In this document: one piece after another, positions 8,570-64,000 of the stretch
Layout of the letters: each line of letters starts with the position of its first letter
Numbering within the stretch: the first letter of the stretch is position 1
NCBI GenBank assembly: GCA_037893245.1
Contig: JBAIAA010000745.1
Span: forward strand, 310,001-374,000
Origin: Crossaster papposus
Lineage: Eukaryota > Echinodermata > Asteroidea > Velatida > Solasteridae
DNA: 64,000 nt
Direction: 5' to 3'
Notes under the pieces: generated by a model
Database searches by the model: none
Seen by the model: the letters and a program-made list of their open reading frames with translations, nothing else
Told to the model about the DNA's origin: nothing
Made by a program: the position numbers and the translations under genes

Positions 8570-9516
8570 GAGTGGAACGAGTGGAACGAGTGGGACGTGT
8601 TGTTAACTTGCTCTGTCGGGCTCCTTTTTAAATCCTTTTAAATCTACGGTTTTACTTAGACATCCTTGCATACTTTTTAATACATGTACAATATTGACTT
8701 CTGTGAACGTATGGAGCACCTTTTTGATGTGATAGTGATTTTTAATAAGTGATATTTTGGTCGTGGAACTTTCGACGATCGACTACAAAAGGTCTACTTG
8801 AATACTGCGACGCCATGTTGCTTTTCTCACCTGTATTCAAAGCAGTGCTTGGACTCCTACTGATTACCGTTGGAGTTGCCAGCCATTGGAATGGAAGTAT
8901 CTGCGTTGCGGGGAGCCATCGGATCTGCGGTGGGAGTGTTCCTTATTTTTGTGTTTTATCAGCTAAACTCTGTAACTCCAACTTTGGAGCAACAATCGAC
9001 TACAAACACAAACCCAGAATCAGGTATTGTAAAGCCCATACTACTTACTACAGCAACTGTACAGCTTCTTTGCAGTTGACCCGGCATGCTGTCCTGTCTG
9101 GTGACATCGAAGTGAATCCCGGACCCATCAAATACCCTTGCACCCAATGTGAGAAACCAGTGAAGTCCAATCAACGGGGCATCTGCTGTGATTCCTGTGA
9201 CTTATGGTCTCATGCGAAATGTGTATCCATCGGATCAGCGAGCTACTACCAGATGTCTGCCTCCGCAAATTCTTGGTTTTGCAATGGATGTCTCCAGGCA
9301 GAATTACCGCGCCTGACCGACTCATTTTTTTTATTCCTGATAGTGAAATCAACCAAGAAGATGACTTGCAGGCCGAGCTCATTCTTGCAGATACCTCCAC
9401 CCTGAGTTTAGACAACTTATCATCTGTGGCATCCTCATCTACACGTGATCCTAGAATCAAGAGTATCCTGTATAATGCCAGAAGTGTCGTTAACAAACGT
9501 CTTAAAATGGTGTGTT
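8570..9516 (+). mobile_element. 5' part of a CR1/L2-type LINE
   Basis: Starts near a GTGGAACGAGTGGAACGAGT segment, followed by a 5' leader, an ORF1 with 2A peptide and PHD finger (8749-9405), and the first residues of an endonuclease ORF (SILYNARSVVNK, about 9465-9500). It stops abruptly at 9516, where an unrelated repeated motif begins, so everything from the endonuclease active site onward is missing. 2A peptides at this place are known in APE-type LINEs of sea urchin and lancelet. Confidence 0.72.
8749..9405 (+). CDS. LINE ORF1 with 2A peptide and PHD finger (3' end frameshifted)
   Basis: A 218-codon frame. Residues 22-46 form a hydrophobic stretch (AMLLFSPVFKAVLGLLLITV) that could act as a signal or membrane segment. 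Residues 118-126 are GDIEVNPGP, an exact 2A ribosome-skipping consensus, with the skip expected between G125 and P126. A complete C4HC3 PHD finger follows directly: C131, C134, C147, C150, H155, C158, C178, C181. After about residue 190 the frame is off. The natural continuation (DSEINQEDDLQAEL onward, then RDPRIKSILYNARS) lies in another forward frame at 9340-9500, so one indel near 9320-9340 breaks the ORF. Known family: CR1/L2-like APE LINEs, where ORF1 PHD domains are thought to aid RNA or chromatin binding. The start codon is uncertain; M23 is an alternative. Confidence 0.75.
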   Translation: MIFWSWNFRRSTTKGLLEYCDAMLLFSPVFKAVLGLLLITVGVASHWNGSICVAGSHRICGGSVPYFCVLSAKLCNSNFGATIDYKHKPRIRYCKAHTTYYSNCTASLQLTRHAVLSGDIEVNPGPIKYPCTQCEKPVKSNQRGICCDSCDLWSHAKCVSIGSASYYQMSASANSWFCNGCLQAELPRLTDSFFLFLIVKSTKKMTCRPSSFLQIPPP

Positions 9517-43203: not shown

Positions 43204-45058
43204 ATCCAGGATTGTAAAACTGTGGACATCATCATCAAGCCAGCTGATAAAGGCTCAGCCGTGGTCATCATGGATCGTCAGCAGTACATCGCCGAGGCCC
43301 ACCGTCAGTTGGACAACCGTACTAACTATATCTGCCTTGACTCTGATCCCACAGGTACATTCTCTCGAGAGATACAGCAGTTGCTTGATGACATGCGGTC
43401 ACGTGACCAACTGTCAAAGAAAGCTCACAAATTTCTTTCACCCACTGACTGTAGAACTGCCAGGTTTTATCTTCTCCCCAAGATTCACAAGACTGGTAAC
43501 CCTGGTAGGCCTATCGTCTCGGGTAATGGCTCACCCACGGAACACATCTCCATGTTTATTGACAGTTTTCTTAAACCCCTTGTCCATAGGATTCCATCAT
43601 ACATCCATGACACCCCGGACTTCCTGCGCAAGCTCGAAGGAATCAAGGACCAGATTCCCAGAACGGCCATCATTGGGACCTTTGACGTCTCATCCTTGTA
43701 CACCAACATACCACACGAAGAAGGTATTCGTGCTTGTTCCATAACCCTAGCTAGGGCAGGACACACGACCCCTCCCATAAGTGACATTCGCGCCCTCATG
43801 AAACTTGTACTAACGAAGAATAATTTTTCCTTCCTAGATAAGCACTATCTACAGGTACATGGCACTGCAATGGGTACTCGTATGGCACCCTCCTTTGCAT
43901 GCCTCTTTTTTGGGTGACCTCGAGGAACGCATGCTTGCCTTAGCACCGTGCCGTCCCTGGATCTGGTGGAGATACATTGATGATGTATTTTTCATATGGA
44001 CCAGTGATGAGGACAGTCTGCTGACTTTCACTAATCACATGAATTCCTTCCACAGGACCATCAAGTTCACATCAGAGTACTCGCATCATCAGGCCCACTT
44101 CCTGGATGTCACCATCCGCAAGGAGGACAACTTAATAACCACTGATCTGTATTCTAAACCCACAGACACACACCAGTATCTCCACTCCTCCAGCTGTCAC
44201 CCTAGGCATTGTAAGACTGGTATAGCATTTAGTCAAGCCCTCAGACTCAAAAGGATTTGTTCTAACGACTATGATTTCTCCCGCCATTCACAGATACTGA
44301 AGAACAACTTGGTTGCCAGGGGTCACAGTTCCCGCCAAGTTCAACGTGCCATTGCCAGAGCCAAAGCCGTACCCAGAAATTTGGCTCTAAAGGTAAAGGC
44401 CCCCCAGGCTAATGCCAAACCCATGATCCCCCTGGTGACTACCTTTCACCCCAGTCTCCCTTCCCTTCGCAAAATCACCAACGACAGCCATCACATTCTC
44501 CACACTTCAGATCGCCTTGTCCGGGCCATCCCCGACAGCCCTGTATTGGCCTATAGACGCCCTCAAAATCTACGAGACCTCATTGTTCGAGCCGAAGTTC
44601 CCAGCTTGGATGCATCTCCCCCCATCCAGCACGGAACTTTCAAGTGCAGCTCTAGATGTGTGGTCTGCCAGATCCACATTCAGGAGTCTGACTCCTTTTC
44701 TGGCCACTCTTCTGGTACTACTCATATAATTATTGGTAACATCACTTGCAGTACATCTAACGTCATATATCTCATCTCTTGCAGGTTTTGTGGAGTTCAG
44801 TATGTCGGAGAGACCAAAAATGCCCTAAAAAAGCGTTTCTACGGTCATCGATCGACTGTCAACACCAAGAAACTGGATACCCCTGTAGGACATCACTTTA
44901 ACCAGCCTAACCATTGCATTTCTGATATGATTCTTCAGGGCATAGAATCACTTGGCCATCGGAAAGACTCAGTCCGCCTCAGCCGGGAGAAAGTCTGGAT
45001 GAATCGTCTTCGGACTATTCAACCACATGGGCTTAACATCCAACTAGGAAATGATTAA
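43204..45058 (+). CDS. Penelope reverse transcriptase with GIY-YIG endonuclease (interrupted)
   Basis: Two overlapping open segments, ending at 43917 and starting by 43859. The first has IIIKPADKGSAVVIMDRQQY, LLPKIHKTGNPGRPIVSG and FDVSSLYTNIPHEEG, all typical Penelope RT blocks. The second has the catalytic YIDD at 43973-43984, then FTSEYSHHQAHFLDVTI and LYSKPTDTHQYLHSSS. Near the end, VIYLISC...QYVGET (44762-44816) and KKRFYGHRS form the GIY-YIG nuclease, with a downstream SREKVWMNRL carrying the conserved Glu. The stop is at 45056-45058. The apparent Met start lies inside the 13-bp array and is an artefact of truncation. In Penelope elements the RT and nuclease act together in target-primed insertion. 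Confidence 0.88.
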
Positions 45059-53130: not shown

Positions 53131-56100
53131 CCAGCAGGATGCCGCGCTTCGCGCGGCACCTGGTAGCTGGGTGAAATCGTAACTTATAGATACACCTTGT
53201 TGACGTCTTAAAAACATAATGGATTGTATGACAAACAAATCGCGAGTAGAGTACCAGCTAGAAAGTATTTCGAGCGCACGAAATTATTTCGTAACGGTGA
53301 TTTGTATTCGTCATATGTCCCTTTAGGGGCTCCGTAGAATACCATCGACTCTGAATAAAAACAATCTTTGTAAAAATACTTCCCGACTTCCGAACTAATA
53401 ATACTCAATAGGCAGTCTATCTTCGCTTGCATGCTGCCTGCGTCTCGTGATTTTTAACAGGAATCGTACGGGAAACAATACGAACCACTTCGGGATTTCT
53501 GATTTACATCATCGTGAAAATCATGATTAAAAAAACCAACAGGCCGGCCATCTGACAGTGCGCCCTCAACTGACGTAATGCAGTCAAGTTTCTAAATTGC
53601 ATATTCATATCCAGGATCGACAGACAATTTCGCGACATTTTTGCACGATGAACGTTACATTTTGCACAGTAGCGATAGGTTTTGGAGTGTTTTTGGAGAG
53701 ATAATGTTGTAATATTTAAGTATCGACAATGTGAAGCAAAGAAATTTGCCCAAAAGGCAACACGAAAGGAATAAATCATTTTTTTAACGTTCAGAACCTG
53801 TGACTGAGAAGTGGTCGATGCGCACGAATTCGAAGCCGAAAACGAAGCTGGCGCTCAACTGGTACTCAACTGGTACTATGTTTCCACCGCAATAACCAAG
53901 TGAGTATAAAGCGGGGCACCAGCTCAAATAACACGGGATGCGCCGCCCAATCGCGAACAACAAACTCGGCAACAACTCGGCCACCGAGCGAGCAAGACGG
54001 ATACAATTATTTTGCAAAGGCTTCGTGTAACCACTGATCTCTATAACTGGATAGGTCGAGCGTACATTGATGGGATAGCGAGCCGTGAAGTCACCGGCGG
54101 CCATGTTGGGGTATTCAAAACATTGCCTTCGTGCATGCAAAAGACGCGTAGACACGTCGAGAGTGAGACAGTGGCAGCAGCGATGGTGGGTAAAAATGCA
54201 TTAAAATCATTTGTAAATAAGTAAATTTATTAAATAAACTCAGTATCTATCTTTGAAAAAAATGTCAGGACTACGGTTTTAAGAGAGATTTAGGAGAACA
54301 TTGTTGGGCGAAAACGATATTTTTGTTTCCACATGAATTCCAGCGGGATTTTTTCATATTGTGGTCCTATCTATCATTTTATCTGAAAGAAAAACTGGGA
54401 TATTTCGAAAGAACAGTAGATTTATAGAATCAGTTGGTCTAGGATACCTTACAATATGATTGAATTCCACAATACAGGTATTTTCAGACCAATTTTGTAC
54501 CCATTCCATGAAGACTGTCCCGTTTACTTGCACGTCAAACAGTTCATGGTGGTAATTTGTGTACACATTCGTACACAACATATTGTGTCATGAACTATTT
54601 GACGTGCATAAATTTAATGTTCTGTAGAATTATCCCAATATCGCAATGATCACAGTTTTTTCTCTCACAATTCTGGAAGTGTAGAGCCACCTATTAATAA
54701 TAATAATAGTATTATTAAATGCATGGTGTAGGCCAAGGCTATCATGGTGAAACTTGGATGTAGACACGTATTTCCAATACTTCAGAACAATTTCATTTTC
54801 GCCCACAAATCTCTCTTAAAAAAGTAGTCCTGATGACATTCCTTACAGTGCTCAAATGAAATTTCACTCTCTGAAGAAATGGGTATGCCAAATAAATTGA
54901 GAATTTTGTGTTTTTAAAATAGCGTCATGTTACAACATTCTTTCCTTGGCATTTAATTTATACCTGTATATTTTTTTTCTTTGTACACTACAGCTAATTG
55001 GTTTACCCAAGTCCACTTCTTGCTACTAAGATGTCAGTCTGTACAGCTTATTACGGCTGGACAAGTCATAGGACGAACTGCTCCCATTATGACAGAGGGA
55101 CAACAGATGACAGCGAATGTCATAACTTATTTTGTTTAAGCTAAGCTATCTCGGTGTTCCACATCCCTATAGATGTGCTGCAAATATACTGCAGAACTCT
55201 GCATCTTGGCATTTCATGTTTCAACAATATAAGTACAGATAATAAAACAGTCGCAACAGTCACAAACCTATCTTTGTAACATGGAAATATATTGAACATG
55301 TGTTTTATGAAAACTGACAAATCTGGTTAAAATTGTAGTGTTAATATTCAAAGCAAATTATACAGATGTTAAAATGACATGGATTTACCCAGTCAGTGTT
55401 CTCCACAATCACTGGGTAGCGGCCGCCCTGTGTGCATGTTACGCTGTTCTGTCATATTTTTATGCTGTCAAATTTTGCTTTTCAATCATGGTTTTATTTT
55501 GCTTTCTTACAAAACAAATATTGTGTTCATATCGCACAAATATCTAGAAACACTCACAATTCAAAGTTAAAGCCGTACAAGGGTGTCCTATTAAAATTTG
55601 GCCTGTGAAGAATGCTGTCAAATGTATCTTTGCATAGTATCAACAATTATTATTCTAAAATGACATCGCAAGTTTTGTTTTGGTTTTCAATTCATAAACA
55701 GTCGGGGGTTAATTGTTTTTTATTTGGTTTTCTAACATCAGTAAACAATACATAATAAGCATATTGTTACTATGGCAGTAGTTATTACATGTTATATGTA
55801 ATGTATCAATGTAAAATAAAAGCATTAAGCAAAATTGAATCCATTGTGTGACTTATGTCATTATTTACACATGTGATTGATATTTTTAATTGTGATTTAT
55901 TTCAAGTTTCTCAAGTTCATAGTTTAAGCCATAGAGCTGTATCTTTATTATACAGCTCTATGGTTTAAGCTCAAAACCACATAATTATTTTTTTCTGTCC
56001 ACTTGTCCAGCAAGAATTTTTGGGACCCTTTCTAAAAAATTTACTAAACATTAGGTTGATTCTAAATCTGGACACTGCCTTAAAACCCCACGAACAAACC

Positions 56101-57131: not shown

Positions 57132-59127
57132 CTAGCGGGTTGCCGCGCTTCGCGCGGCACCCGCTTAGCTGGGTGGAATCGTAACTTATAGATACACCTT
57201 GTTGACGTCCTAAAAACATAATGGATTGTATGACAAACAAACAGAGACAAATTTCGAGCTCACGAAAATATTTGTTTTGAGCGCACGAAATCATTCAGTC
57301 GAGCTCACGAAATAAGTTATTTCGAGTGCACGAAATGATTTCGTGGGCACGAAATGAAATAATCAAATGATTTCTTCACGGTGATTTGTATTCGTCATAT
57401 GTCCCTTTAGGGGCTCCGTAGGATACCATTGACTCTGAATAAAAACAATCTGCGTAATGCAGTCACGTTTCTAAATTGAATATTCATATCCACGATCGCC
57501 ATACAATTTCGCGACATTTTTGCACGATCAAAGTTAAAATTGAGGCAATAGCGATATGTTTCGGAGTGTTTTTAGAGAGATAGTGTTGTAATATTTAAGT
57601 ATTGACAATGTGAAAGGAAGAAATTTTCCCAGAAGGCAACACGAAAGGAATAAATCATTGTTTTTACGTTCCAAAACTGTGACTACAAAATGGTCGACGC
57701 GCAGGAATTCGGAGCCAAAGCCAAAGCCGAAACGTAGTCACGTTTCTGAATTGCATATTCATATCCACGATCGCCATACAATTTCGCGACTTTTTGCACG
57801 ATTAAAGGTAATTACATTGAGGCAATAGCGATGACAAACAAACCGCGAAACTTAGCGAGTAGAGTACCAGCTAGAAATTATTTAGAGCGCACGAAATTAT
57901 TTAGAGCTCACGAACAGATTTTTTGGGAGCGCAGGAAGTCATTTCGTGTCCACGAAAACATTTCGAGCTCACGAAATAAGTTATTTTGAGTGCACGAAAT
58001 AAAAAACTCAAATTATTTCGTAACGGTGATTTGTGTCAGTCGTCATATGTCCCTTTAGGGGCTCCGTAGAATACCACGGACTCTGAATAAAAACAATATT
58101 TGTAAAAATACTTCCCGACTTCCGAACTAATAATACTCAATAGGCAGTCCATCTTCGCTTGCATGCTGCCTGCGTCTCGTGATTTTTAACAGGAACCGTA
58201 CGGGAAACAATACGAACCACTTCGGGATTTCTGATTTACATCATCGTTAAAATCATGATTAAAAAAACCCAACAGACCGGCCATAATGACAGTGCGCCCT
58301 CAACTGACGTAATGCAGTCACGTTTCTAAATTGAATATTCATATCCACGATCGCCATACAATTTCGCGACATTTTTGCACGATGAACGTTAACATTTGCG
58401 CAATAGCGATATGTTTCGGAGTGTTTTTACAGAGATAATGTTGTAATATTTAAGTATTGACAGTGTGCAAGAGAGAAATTTGTCCAAAAGGCAACACGAA
58501 AGGAATTAATCATTGTTTTTACGTTCCCAAACTGTGACTTAAAGTGGTCGGCGCGCACGGAATTCGAAGCCGAAAACGAAGCTGGCGCTCAAACTCCGCA
58601 ATAACCAAGGTATGCGCCGCCCAATCACGAACAACAAACTCGGCAACAACTCGGCCACCGAGCGAGCAAGGCGGATACAATTAATTTGCGAAGGCTTCGC
58701 GTAACGCAGTAGCTGCCGCTTAATCGCGAACAGCCAACAATTCGGCGACCGAGTTACGGTACGATTTCGGGAGGGCTTCGGCCCGAACTCCGGGCAAGGA
58801 CAATGCAAAAATAATGCAATAGTTTACGCAAAAAGGCCCACACACATCAACAGGCAATCGAAAAGCGACTGCACGTTTATCAGTAACGTCTGTTTCTCCC
58901 AAATCTCACCACGGGACGAATATGAGTTTTTCTTTCGTCGTCGCGAACCATCCGGCACCCCGCCGCACCGACGCCGGCGGCACACACGCGCGGCGCCGAG
59001 TCGCCCGACCAAAAGCGCCGCGCCTCTCCAACATGGCGCCAACCACGCGCCAAGATGGCGCGGCCCTGCGTTCCAAGATGGCGGCGCCCAGGGACAAGAT
59101 GGCGCATTTTACATCTTTTATAGTATA
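57132..59127 (-). mobile_element. Helitron H4, internally rearranged
   Basis: CTAG-hairpin end at 57132 with AGCGGG/CCCGCT outer arms; 5' end TATACTATAAAAGATG near 59127 (leading TC not preserved). Carries extra partial copies of the internal segment (57440-57830, 58300-58560) and two CACGAAAT arrays, so it is a rearranged or composite copy. Confidence 0.8.
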
Positions 59128-59286
59128 CAAATATTGACTGCTAGTGGTATAGTAAAACTATCCTCCCGAGGTGATCCATGGAGCATTCTATTTTCCCGAG
59201 GCGAAGCCGAGGGAAAATAGAATGCTCCATGGATCACCGAGGGAGGCTAGTTTTACTATACCGCGAAATAAAGCAGTCAATATTTG
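59128..59286. repeat. Long imperfect hairpin between Helitrons
   Basis: Arms of about 75 bases share CAAATATTGACTGCT, GGTATAGTAAAACTA and GGTGATCCATGGAGCATTCT; the loop lies in CCCGAGGCGAAGCCGAGGG. Confidence 0.85.
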
Positions 59287-59287
59287 T

Positions 59288-59649
59288 TTTATAACACCTC
59301 ACTCACATATTCTGCACAATTTAAGCTTCCTGAAAGTATAGTAATGACAAAAAATCTCCGAAAAATACGTCTCTCGATCATACGTGTACTTTGTTGCCTT
59401 GATGAACGGGTGCGAAGGTGATAGAGCAATGTTTACGCAATGCACCGAAACACACGTCTGGGTTTCAGTCACGCTTTCGTTGCTATGCGCATATTCGTGT
59501 GTTGCTATGCGCATATTCCTTTTTGCGTGGTATAGTCTTTTTGGATAGTCTTATTTCTCCATGGTACAAAATAGTAAAAATAGCAAGTGACACGTGCCGC
59601 GCTCTCGGCCAATCAAGACACAGAATCTGTGAGTGAGGTGTTATAATAT
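59288..59649. mobile_element. TIR element with TATAACACCTCACTCACA ends
   Basis: Exact 18-bp inverted ends, about 360 bp, no ORF of note. It may form one unit with the hairpin on its left, since both sit between H4 and H5. Confidence 0.65.
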
Positions 59650-59652
59650 AGA

Positions 59653-60539
59653 CTAGCAGGATGCCGCGCTTCGCGCGGCACCTGCTAGCTGGGTGAAATC
59701 GTAACTTAATATAGATACACCTTGTTGACGTCTTAAAAACATAATGGATTGTATGACAAACAAATCGCGAAACTTAGCGAGTAGAGTACCAGCTAGAAAG
59801 TATTTCGAGCGCACGAAATTATTTCGAGCTCACGAACAGATATTCTTGGAGCGCAAGAAGTCATTTCGTGGCCACGAAAACATTTCGAGCTCACGAAATA
59901 AGTTATTTTGAGTGCACGAAATAAAATACTCAAATTATTTCGTAACGGTGATTTTTATTCGTCATAATTATGTCCCTTTAGGGGCTCCGTAGAATACCAT
60001 CGCCTCTGAATAACAAACAATCTTTGTAAAAATACTTCCCGACTTCCGAACTAATAATACTCAATAGGCAGTCCATCTTTGCTTGCATGCTGCCTGTGTC
60101 TCGTGATTTTTTAACAGGAATCGTACGGGAAACAATACGAACCACTTCGGGATTTCTGAGTTTACATCATCGTGAAAATCCTGATTAAAAAACCCAACAG
60201 GCCGGCCATCTGACAGTGCGCCCTCAACTGACGTAATGCAGTCACGTTTCTAAATTGCATATTCATATCCACCATCGCCATACAATTTCGCGACATTTTT
60301 GCACGATCAAAGTTGAAATTGAGGCAATAGCGATATGTTTCGGAGTGTTTTGAGACAGATAATGTTGTAATATTTCAGTATAGACAATGTGAAGCAAAGA
60401 AATTTGCCGAAAAGGCAACACGAAAGGAATAAATCATTTTTAAACGTTCCCAAGCTGTGACTGAAACGTGGTAGACGCGCACGAATTCCAACCCGAAAAC
60501 GAAGCCGGAGCTCAACTGGTACTATGTTTACTCCGCAGT
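59653..60539 (-). mobile_element. Helitron H5, 5' part lost to the LINE insertion
   Basis: Begins with the CTAG-hairpin end and follows H1/H2 until about 60538, where the U2-LINE junction starts. The part that would contain the CAAGATGGCG cluster is absent from the window. Confidence 0.85.
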
Positions 60540-60568
60540 ATGCATCTCCTTTTGGCTAAGATCAAGTG
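60540..60568 (+). pseudogene. 5' end of U2 snRNA at the LINE junction
   Basis: CTTTTGGCTAAGATCAAGTG is identical to U2 snRNA about nucleotides 14-33. The preceding ATGCATCTCC aligns with the U2 start ATCGCTTCTCGGCC with small gaps. Similarity stops after AAGTG, where U2 continues TAGTATCTG and this sequence reads CTACCAG. Established: U2 sequence; Tx1-clade LINEs of the Keno type insert in U2 genes. Inference: the LINE RNA started at a U2 transcription start. Confidence 0.75.
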
Positions 60569-60595
60569 CTACCAGCTTGATCTCGCATCTTAGCC

Positions 60596-62362
60596 ATGTC
60601 CTTAAACAGGAACCGGACGGTAGAGCTGCATCTACCGCTGAGGACAGCACCAGCGATGGTCTTTACCCTTTTGGAGGAGCAGTTGAAGGAGCCTGAAATC
60701 GAATGTGTTCAGCAACTTGGTGAGAAGCGCTGGGCCGTGACGGCAACAACGGAGGCGCTTGCAGGACGCTTGCGTGGAGCAGACTTCTTCGTCGATGGAC
60801 AGCGGGCAACATTAACGTCAGCAGGGGGGCATACGACTTTCGTCAACATCAGATACGCGCCGGACGAGATGTTGGATGGCCCCATCGTCACCAAGCTGTC
60901 CCAGTACGGCCGGGTGGTAGGGATCCGCCGTGGACGTTGGCAGACAAGGCTTGGCTACAAAAACGGTACGAGGCATGCCCGCTTGGAGCTGAAGACGGCA
61001 ATCCCCAGCTACATCCAGGTTGGCGGGTTTCGTCTACTTGTGCAATATGAGGGACAGCAACAGACGTGCCGATCTTGCGGGGGCGAGGGACATTTCGCAG
61101 CGCAGTGCCCCAACATTCCGTGTTTTAACTGCCGTCAGCCAGGCCACCGTAGCGCGGAGTGTCCCGAGCCCAAAAAGTGTTTGATTTGCGGGGAAGTAGG
61201 CCACTTGGCAAAAGATTGCTCCCAGTCTTGGAGGAACACCACAGCAAGGAATCGACACACCATAACTTTTCCTCCACCATCCTCAGGCATGGAATGCGAA
61301 TCCGGCAGCGACATCGAGGTGAGAAAATCAAACCACCAGGTAGTCCCCGGAATACCGGCTCCACCGGGTTTCTGGGACGAGCCCCACCCCGTTCAAAAAC
61401 CTACTACCAAGCCAGTGAACACTACCAAGACGGTGAACACTACCAAGACGGTGAACACTACCAAGCTAGTGAACACTATCAAGCCAGTGGACACTATCAA
61501 GCCAGTGGACACTATCAAGCCAGTGAACACTATCAAGCCAGTGAACACTATCAAGCCAGTGAACACTATCAAGCCAGTGAATACTACCAAGCGAGCCCCA
61601 GTGACGACCAAAGCTGTGTCACCCGCCAAGTCCAATGAAACCCACAAGCCTCATAGAAAACCACAGTCCGCCGAGACCCGTGCCGAGCCCACGACCACGA
61701 CCACCAAGCCACTCCCGGTAAACCCCTTTGCCCAACACACGTTCACCACCAAGCCACGCCCAGTTATACCCTCCGCCCGGTCCACGGCCGCCACTAAATC
61801 GCGCCCGGCAGTGAAACCGGCGGAAAAGATTGCTCAGCCCGCTATAAATATGTACACGGCCGCGGCTCGTACGAGCTCATCACAGAAGAGCGCACACGTC
61901 GTGAAATCTGCTGGACCCAGCACGCGCGGAGCAACGGCCCTACTACCAGCCCAAACGACATCACAGCCCTCGACCCTCTTCCCGTCGTCTCCCGGCCTCC
62001 CGTCGGAACCAGCCCAGTGGAGCAAGCCCAGAAGCAAGCATCGTACCCCTAGCTCTACCTTCTTTGAGGAAAAGCTACAGTTCACTACCGAGGCAGCATC
62101 TGGACTGGCAACCCGCGACTGGGCTGTTGCAACGGCCAACACCTACGACGGGTTGGAGGATGAATTGGCTAAGGGGGTGACAGAGGTTTACGGTGAGCAG
62201 CCACTCACTGAAACCCTCAATGGCAGTGACTCGGGGACAGACTCTGACCGCTCGACGCTTAGCTGTGTGTCGATGGTCAGCAGCAAGCGTGGCAGATCGT
62301 CCTCGGAGGAAAACTTTCTACATAAGAAAGCCTACAAGGGGAAGCAGAAAAAGTGTTTTTGA
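60596..62362 (+). CDS. LINE ORF1 nucleic-acid-binding protein, three CCHC knuckles
   Basis: 588 codons, intact. Residues about 20-150 look like an RRM-type fold (FVNIRYAPDEMLDGPIV in the middle). Three zinc knuckles follow: C158-C171, C176-C189 and C195-C208, all CxxCxxxGHxxxxC. Residues about 265-335 are a 6-residue repeat KPVNTI/KTVNTT coded by an 18-bp tandem repeat (61407-61590). The C-terminal part is Ser/Thr/Pro-rich and ends basic (KKAYKGKQKKCF). Expected role: binds its own RNA to form the transposition particle. The ATG follows directly on the leader hairpin. Start choice is secure since it is the first ATG after the U2 junction that opens the frame. Confidence 0.88.
   Translation: MSLNRNRTVELHLPLRTAPAMVFTLLEEQLKEPEIECVQQLGEKRWAVTATTEALAGRLRGADFFVDGQRATLTSAGGHTTFVNIRYAPDEMLDGPIVTKLSQYGRVVGIRRGRWQTRLGYKNGTRHARLELKTAIPSYIQVGGFRLLVQYEGQQQTCRSCGGEGHFAAQCPNIPCFNCRQPGHRSAECPEPKKCLICGEVGHLAKDCSQSWRNTTARNRHTITFPPPSSGMECESGSDIEVRKSNHQVVPGIPAPPGFWDEPHPVQKPTTKPVNTTKTVNTTKTVNTTKLVNTIKPVDTIKPVDTIKPVNTIKPVNTIKPVNTIKPVNTTKRAPVTTKAVSPAKSNETHKPHRKPQSAETRAEPTTTTTKPLPVNPFAQHTFTTKPRPVIPSARSTAATKSRPAVKPAEKIAQPAINMYTAAARTSSSQKSAHVVKSAGPSTRGATALLPAQTTSQPSTLFPSSPGLPSEPAQWSKPRSKHRTPSSTFFEEKLQFTTEAASGLATRDWAVATANTYDGLEDELAKGVTEVYGEQPLTETLNGSDSGTDSDRSTLSCVSMVSSKRGRSSSEENFLHKKAYKGKQKKCF
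61407..61590 (+). repeat. In-frame 18-bp repeat in LINE ORF1
   Basis: About ten units of AAGCCAGTGAACACTATC with point variants, kept in frame. All three forward frames remain open across it; only the ORF1 frame is real. Confidence 0.9.
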
Positions 62363-62427: not shown

Positions 62428-64000
62428 ATGGCTTCGTTTAAAATTGCTAGTTTGAATGTAAACGGTTTGAGGAATCGGGGAAAGCGCTGTCAAATTTTCG
62501 ATTTCTGCAACAATCAGAATATTGATATTCTGCTGTTGCAGGAAACTCACGCCTCTGGCTTTTTCGAGGCCAGAGCGTGGGCCAGAGAATTTGGGGGCGC
62601 AGGTTTCTGGTCCTTTGGGTCAACCTCGAGTTGTGGGACGGCCATCTTGCTGTCTTCACGCCACTCTTGGTGCCCTGCAGATCATTTGCGTGACAATAGA
62701 GGTAGGTTGCTTTCTCTCACGGTTACAATGCCCGACACAAAAGCAAAAATTCGCATTGTGAATTTATATGCGCCAAATAATCCCCACGAACGCCAGCTTT
62801 TCTTTCGCAATGAGTTACAACAGCACACACGGGGTATGAGACACGTTGTTTTGGGGGGAGATTTCAATTGTATTGCAGACCTTATTTTAGATTCTAAAAA
62901 TAATACGTCTCACTGCGTAACAGGAATGAACGAAATTAATAAAACCGTGAGAGAAAGCGGCCTCCTCGATATATGGCGGTCGCAGAATCCTTCAGACAAA
63001 AGATTTACTTGGCATTCCTCGAATTACAATCAAGCCACAAGAATTGACCGCATATATTTGTCACGTGAATTGTCTGCGGGTGCACTTAGCGCAATCACTG
63101 CATGTCCCCTGTCTGATCATGACTTGATCTCGGTTGTGCTTTCCAATCAAGTGAAAAATACGGGGCGGGGTTTTTGGAAAATGAACACTTCTTTTTTAGG
63201 GCGGGATGATTTTAGGGGGGTAGTTAAATCGGAGTGGGAAGATTGGATCTCAAAAAAAGATGATTTTAATAGTTTAATTGACTGGTGGGACAGGGGTAAA
63301 ATCCATCTCAAAAGTGCAGTGATTGCGTTTTCTGCTGGTGAAGCAAAAAAACGTAATTCGGAACGTAAAGAGCTCCTGAGGGAAAATCGGTGTACTTCAA
63401 GCTAAAATTGATCGCGGAGACTCGGCATGCGCAGAGTTGCAGACTTTAACAAATAAGTACAAATTGCTTAGTAAAAGTACCTTTTTGGTGTCTAACCCAG
63501 TTTCCGTTTCAGAGGAAAGTACCTTTAGGCCCCAAACAAGAAATCTTGAGCTAAAGCGCATGCAGGGTCTCCGCGATTGTTCCGGTCACACAATAACGGA
63601 CCCGGAACAAATGAGCGAAACTTGTAGGGATTTTTATTCCAAATTGTTTTCTGAAACAAACGTGAATCGCGAAGATACTGATTTCCTCAGGGGCTCTATT
63701 GATAGTTCACTGAGCCCTGACGAGCAATTGTTGCTCGAGGGGCCGGTGACTGTCGGTGAAGTGAGGCGGGCATTGTTCGGTATGGCGGCGGGTAAGTCCC
63801 CGGGTTCGGACGGCTTGCCCGCTGAATTTTATAAAGCGTTCTTCAGTGATATGGGTCAAGAATTATGTAATATGGTTAATTGTGTTTTAGAGGAAGGTCG
63901 TTTATGTAAAAGTCAAAGGTTGGGTCTTATTTCGTTATTATATAAGAACAAAGGTAGTCGTCTTGATTTAGAGAATTGGAGACCCATATCACTGTTGAAT
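62428..64000 (+). CDS. LINE ORF2: APE endonuclease and reverse transcriptase (frameshifted, partial)
   Basis: ATG at 62428-62430 opens MASFKIASLNVNGLRNRGKR. APE motifs in order: NVNGLR, LLLQETH (catalytic Glu), VNLYAPN, VVLGGDFNC (Asp/Asn), TRIDRIYLS, and SDHDLI (Asp-His). That frame stops at 63403-63405. The same protein continues in the next frame from about 63395 (QAKIDRGDSACAELQ), so there is a one-base gain or two-base loss near 63390. The continuing frame reaches the RT start GMAAGKSPGSDGLPAEFYKA and LENWRPISLLN at the window edge. The GKSPGxDGxPxEFY form is typical of L1/Tx1 RTs. The catalytic RT core lies outside the window. Confidence 0.88.

Follow-up and report, generated by a model that had tools for sequence, protein, structure and literature searches.

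The described systems closest to the locus reported here include long interspersed nuclear elements (LINEs) tied to the genes of U2 small nuclear RNA (snRNA). Keno, one of these, is reportedly a member of the Tx1 clade that has an apurinic (APE)-type endonuclease and targets U2. In a 64,000-nucleotide (nt) stretch of Crossaster papposus DNA (contig JBAIAA010000745.1, positions 310,001 to 374,000; hereafter the window), we find a LINE that lies within a repeat, is headed by a 21-base piece of U2 and is cut by the right edge of the window at 64000. The repeat is referred to as Helitron H5, a putative label assigned by an earlier note on this DNA.

Keno has been reported from frogs, fish, lancelet and hydra, and its 3′ flank is identical to that of Utopia, a NeSL-related LINE in which the U2 sequence downstream of the insertion resumes at nt 39 (PMC4640811). 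The 3′ target of Keno is given as TCTGTTCTTATCAG, also written TCTGTTCTTATCAGTTTAAT, and its site as ‘37 nucleotides’ into U2 (PMC6136364). In Utopia the 5′ boundary varies, and of 65 families 11 have U2 as their 5′ flank; outside U2, crocodilian copies are often found at short U2-like sites, e.g. TGTAGTATCTG (PMC4640811). In many R2s the RNA is cleaved within 28S, as much as 36 bases upstream, and keeps 28S sequence at its 5′ end; it has been proposed that the retained 28S anneals to the target, and changes at the junction can then be inherited (PMC3774820).

The element in the window resembles Keno, as described, in being a LINE with an APE-type endonuclease that is tied to U2 near nt 33–39. 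It differs in that the present copy sits in a Helitron, with a U2 5′ piece as leader and an apparent inverted U2 piece. Utopia likewise is tied to a U2 target; its endonuclease is restriction-like, whereas that of the element here is APE-type, which argues against membership of Utopia, although the C-terminus of ORF2, where a restriction-like endonuclease would be expected, falls beyond the window. Chimeras of snRNA and L1 also have the 5′ part of an snRNA joined upstream of a LINE, but mostly consist of U6 or U6atac and a 5′-truncated L1 (PMC4476161), whereas the LINE in the window extends to the start of open reading frame (ORF) 1. The kind of element is already known, namely a U2-associated LINE of the L1/Tx1 group, and the U2-headed copy is a variant of it. 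Among the titles, abstract openings and passages of open-licence papers that were covered, none described a Tx1 element with a U2 leader or with U2 in inverted orientation, which does not establish absence from print.

The leader is derived from U2. With the U2 of contig L001 (Rfam score 172 bits) as the reference, all 21 bases from nt 13 to nt 33 are identical; the earlier note had reported 20 of them, following a diverged U2 start at the junction. A 20-mer from this block occurs once in the window when up to three mismatches are allowed, as against a mean of 0.01 in 100 shuffled sequences. For an exact 20-mer of U2, 2e-5 occurrences are expected over the two strands of the window. A search of this kind for exact matches gave at most 12 bases for U1 and no match of 11 bases or more for 5S. 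Together, the shuffles, the expected number and the U1 and 5S controls rule out a chance origin of the match.

The junction is defined by four sister copies of the repeat that span the insertion point, at 53886, 58594, 30613 and 32348, the last two being identical there. All four carry CCGCAATAACC where the interrupted copy carries CCGCAGTATGCATCTCC, and the interrupted copy reads CCGCAGTATGCATCTCCTTTTGG across the junction. Because the sister copies lack the insert at the matching place, the insert must begin between 60537 and 60540, in agreement with the junction in H5 that had been described before. Further partial copies of the repeat were found in the comparison of the window with itself (74–92% identity); three of the partial copies stop short of the junction and are uninformative about it. 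A U2 gene native to the locus, with its own promoter, was considered and is ruled out by the flank: this is repeat sequence, and U2 is missing from the other copies of the repeat. A palindromic (self-complementary) stretch at 59127–59287, with 82.6% identity over 167 aligned columns, also lies in the repeat region, upstream of the LINE.

Whether the leader reaches the 5′ end of U2 depends on the few bases between the junction and the exact block, where the earlier note had described a diverged U2 start. Positions 60540–60548 can be aligned to U2 nt 1–13 as AT-GCATCT---C. If the insert starts at 60540, this alignment is equalled by 0.57% of random stretches of the window and 1.4% of shuffles. 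With a start at 60538 the figures are 6.5% and 18%, and with a start at 60541 they are 5.0% and 21%. A diverged start with U2 nt 1–12 is plausible but not certain, loose as the fit is; the leader may begin at the 5′ end of U2, although it does not have to.

Features of the insertion and its surroundings in the window
Feature	Position	Strand	Basis or remark
Repeat copy (Helitron H5) up to the junction	59641..60537	+	About 91–93% identity, in pieces, to four sister copies that continue without U2 or LINE
Junction bases and possible diverged U2 start	60538..60547	+	60540–60547 against U2 nt 1–12: one substitution, deletions of 1 and 3 bases
Exact U2 snRNA nt 13–33 (CCTTTTGGCTAAGATCAAGTG)	60548..60568	+	Sequence identity to reference U2
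Rest of 5′ untranslated region (CTACCAGCTTGATCTCGCATCTTAGCC), apparent reverse complement of U2 nt 19–36	60569..60595	-	18/18 bases in order, insertions of 1, 1 and 7 bases; moderate support
Uninterrupted LINE ORF1 of 588 aa with three zinc knuckles of the CCHC type	60596..62362	+	ORF list, Pfam
Initial part of LINE ORF2, with an apurinic-type endonuclease followed by an L1-like linker; stop after frame break	62428..63405	+	Pfam, structure relatives
LINE ORF2 continued, other frame, putative reverse transcriptase start, cut by window end	63380..64000	+	Reverse transcriptase start judged by eye
Empty site c53 in a sister copy	53887..53911	+	CCGCAATAACCAAGTGAGTATAAAG; CAAGTG-AGTAT resembles U2 CAAGTGTAGTAT

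The ATG of ORF1 follows the exact U2 block after 27 bases, close to the 30 or so noted before. The three zf-CCHC stretches of ORF1 are recognized by Pfam at 1.4e-17, and the endonuclease of ORF2 at 4.5e-15 (Exo_endo_phos). The latter lies at the N-terminus of ORF2 and, among solved structures, in which other LINE clades are hardly represented, is most similar to L1 ORF2p (2.2e-21 over endonuclease and linker). The element fits the L1/Tx1 group in this respect. CCHC knuckles in ORF1 are typical of Tx1 and not of mammalian L1, without being unique to Tx1; by this criterion ORF1 points to the Tx1 clade. A structure model of the N-terminal 217 residues of ORF1 had a mean predicted local distance difference test score (pLDDT) of 39, too poor to judge the presence of an RNA recognition motif. 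Because ORF2 changes frame near 63380–63405, the copy is probably defective, or a sequencing or assembly indel is present; the continuation beyond the frame break (63380–64000) has no Pfam match of its own. ORF1 also features an in-frame 18-base tandem repeat at 61403–61592 (10.6 copies, 93% matches) that encodes NTIKPV-like units. The repeat contains ATCAAGCCAGTG, and its apparent relation to U2 was judged by eye to be a coincidence.

The point at which U2 identity stops, nt 33, lies five bases before the published 3′ boundary of Keno and Utopia (nt 38/39). The inverted piece discussed below would start from nt 36, so that both U2 pieces adjoin the published site. A second indication comes from the empty sites. 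In the sister copy at 53886 (c53) the site, CAAGTG-AGTATAAAG, can be aligned to U2 CAAGTGTAGTATCTG, and this copy is the only one of the four that has the stretch CTGGTACTATGTTT in common with the interrupted copy. When the c53 site is compared with U2 nt 25–45, 0.5–0.9% of random windows score as well; for a 12-base core, which was picked after the site had been viewed, the figure is 0.035%.

The remaining 27 bases of the 5′ untranslated region (UTR) appear to hold U2 in the inverted orientation, and the 7-base insertion in this alignment produces a repeated ATCT. Scored against antisense U2 nt 1–38 in a first scheme, the stretch is equalled by 0.2% of random 27-mers of the window, 0 of 5000 27-mers of the LINE and 0.08% of shuffles; in two other schemes the nulls reach 0.2–1.6%. 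U1 and 5S give weaker scores than U2 against the same 27 bases, and local tests of hairpin and duplex energies between the sense U2 piece and these bases gave 0.16–1.7%. With the sense piece ending at nt 33 and its antisense counterpart beginning at nt 36, both come together at a single fold point, a coincidence that lies outside the null figures. We consider the inverted piece more likely to be genuine than not; if it is, U2 may be the source of the entire 5′ UTR between 60540 and the ATG. As the 27 bases contain, in order, all 18 bases of the reverse complement of U2 nt 19–36, the inverted piece would tie the element itself, and not just one copy, to U2.

Two possible RNA features of this region were considered and set aside. 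The hairpin does not stand out as an RNA signal (z −1.8), with 6 of 200 shuffles folding equally well over 81 bases. GGCTAAG (60554–60560, within the U2 block) and CTTAGCC (60589–60595), 28 bases apart, could pair in the manner of P1/P1′ of a hepatitis delta virus (HDV)-like ribozyme, as bases of 28S and R2 do in R2 with 28S-headed RNA (PMC3774820). R2 is of another clade and has another target; in the element here the U2 bases are kept upstream of the would-be cut, and Rfam gave no match to an HDV-like ribozyme in 60300–60900 at E up to 10. The pairing is no more than a lead.

These observations can be brought together as follows. Resident copies of the LINE, an element of the L1/Tx1 group, would sit in U2 snRNA genes just after nt 33–38 and be transcribed from the U2 start, so that their RNA carries a U2 leader. 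A copy of such a U2-headed RNA would then have entered the Helitron through target-primed reverse transcription, at a site resembling U2 (CAAGTGAGTA|T). The 28S sequence kept by many R2 RNAs is the precedent. Inside a genuine U2 gene such a leader would pair with the upstream target and become invisible; in the Helitron it stayed visible, presumably because the site offered nothing for it to anneal to. A cut at the place matching c53 would delete 15 bases of the repeat, and the 3′ flank would then be predicted to start with TAAAG, as follows AGTA (53903–53906) in the sister copy. Perhaps the inverted copy arose during a previous insertion into U2, at its 5′ junction, and was passed on from there; the RNA would then start with a U2 hairpin just before ORF1. 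The inverted copy would also give a stem resembling R2 P1. This account has in our view about an even chance of being correct. In its favour are the 21 exact U2 bases at a mapped insertion junction and, more weakly, a possible start of the insert near U2 nt 1. It retains the U2-targeting LINE with a U2 leader that the earlier note had put forward, for which the U2 identity of the leader, the L1-like endonuclease, the end of U2 at nt 33 and the one U2-like empty site speak; the split after AAGTG that the note envisaged does not by itself explain the inverted piece.

If the account holds, an ectopic copy that keeps its U2 leader is a transcript fossil, marking both the transcription start and the normal site of the element. 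Apart from the sense U2 piece the 5′ UTR has only 27 bases, and ORF1 is complete, so there would be little room for a promoter of the element's own upstream of ORF1. The transcription of target-specific LINEs without such room is best known for R2. SLACS-like elements in spliced-leader genes also begin with target sequence, a parallel that we do not count as evidence. The inverted piece, if genuine, would show how an element assembles its 5′ UTR from the target. In a more far-reaching version the entire 5′ UTR would be target-built (sense U2 nt 1–33, then antisense nt 36–19), and every transcript would start at the U2 start with a hairpin beside the start of ORF1. This would amount to an R2-like, target-derived RNA 5′ end that evolved independently in an APE-type LINE for transcription, processing or annealing, and that the ectopic Helitron copy would expose. 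We rate this extension as rather unlikely.

Several observations weigh against the identification of U2 or against residence in U2 genes with transcription from the U2 start. The first eight bases of the leader match U2 loosely, and U2 nt 34–38 are missing. At gathering scores, no U2 is reported by Rfam anywhere in the window, nor in 60300–60900 at E up to 10, where the sole match, SCARNA7 with 14.6 bits, stays well below its cut-off of 65; this negative carries little weight, because the U2 model can probably not detect a piece as short as 21 bases. According to PMC4640811, no U2 1–38 piece was found upstream of Phytophthora insertions of Utopia; given these and the variable 5′ boundaries of Utopia, a clean U2 5′ piece is not the rule. 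A U2-like target is clear in only one of the four sister copies: the two that are identical there reach 6–12%, and the fourth scores poorly and lacks the feature. As for the inverted piece, its score is reached by 3–20% of nulls when both strands and the whole of U2 are admitted. The repeat flank at 60400–60406 scores as high in the first scheme, so such scores arise nearby by chance, and a LINE stretch around 62151 is as good a pairing partner for the leader as the 27-base tail. In the collections covered outside the window, no other copy of the LINE was seen, whether in U2 or elsewhere. The U2 20-mer has three matches in genome_contigs; all three are recognized as U2 by Rfam, continue beyond nt 39 with normal U2 sequence and carry no LINE at nt 33–39; in two of them the sequence is incomplete, the U2 start being cut off in L002 and the part after about nt 76 in L003. 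In viral_contigs the 20-mer has no match, and single-sequence queries with the ORF2 endonuclease and reverse transcriptase parts, which reach close relatives only, found no relatives there. The sequences outside the window neither support nor refute residence in U2.

The leader could also be target flank and not copied RNA, if a U2 pseudogene or fragment had landed in the Helitron first and a U2-targeting, Keno-like LINE had then inserted at its normal site. Only ordinary events are needed for this, U2 retropseudogenes starting at nt 1 being common in some animals, and both the diverged U2 start and an end near nt 38 would be accounted for. The leader itself is explained equally well by a pseudogene and by transcription from a resident copy, the difference between them lying mainly at the 3′ flank. 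What a pseudogene leaves unexplained is why one sister Helitron has an empty site resembling U2 and, unless it is a feature of the family, the U2-antisense look of the 27 bases of the LINE; nor does the window hold other U2 at Rfam gathering scores, the 3′ flank of the LINE lying beyond it. On balance we regard prior insertion of a pseudogene as unlikely.

A leader acquired during or before the insertion is the other possibility. On arriving at the 5′ end of a normal LINE RNA, the reverse transcriptase might have switched to U2 snRNA, entering it at about nt 33, and copied it to its 5′ end, producing a one-off chimera. Chimeras of snRNA and LINE formed by template switching are documented in several LINE clades, internal switches are recorded for U5, and yet 21 of 30 snRNA-retrotransposon associations involve U6 or U6atac, and in the U2/L1 case the U2 is inverted relative to L1 (PMC4476161). 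A switch at most five bases from the known U2 target would be a coincidence of roughly 3–6%, as estimated from the length of U2, and the antisense U2 in the 5′ UTR would be left unexplained; such a template switch is, in our judgement, distinctly unlikely. Both U2 pieces would be covered, as parts of the element, if the family had gained a U2-derived leader long ago and carried it at every non-U2 site, with U2 genes no longer its target. In that case there is no obvious reason for 21 bases to remain identical to U2, unless the leader is selected or young, and we give a fixed leader of this sort still less chance. Transcription of a resident copy from the U2 start remains the reading that we favour.

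A few features unconnected with the LINE were also seen. The ORF at 43838–45055 has a weak GIY-YIG match (20.2 bits, against a Pfam cut-off of 22.6) and, by eye, suggests a Penelope-like element. The ORF at 8749–9405 encodes a PHD finger preceded by GDIEVNPGP, which resembles a 2A peptide; this ORF is perhaps ORF1 of a CR1-type LINE. The contig that supplied the reference U2 (L001 118-5182) has a length of 5.6 kb, is listed under a bacterial metagenome-assembled genome and holds U1, U2, 5S, three histone 3′ stem-loops and histone-like ORFs; it seems to be of eukaryotic origin, and the linkage of these genes is unusual.
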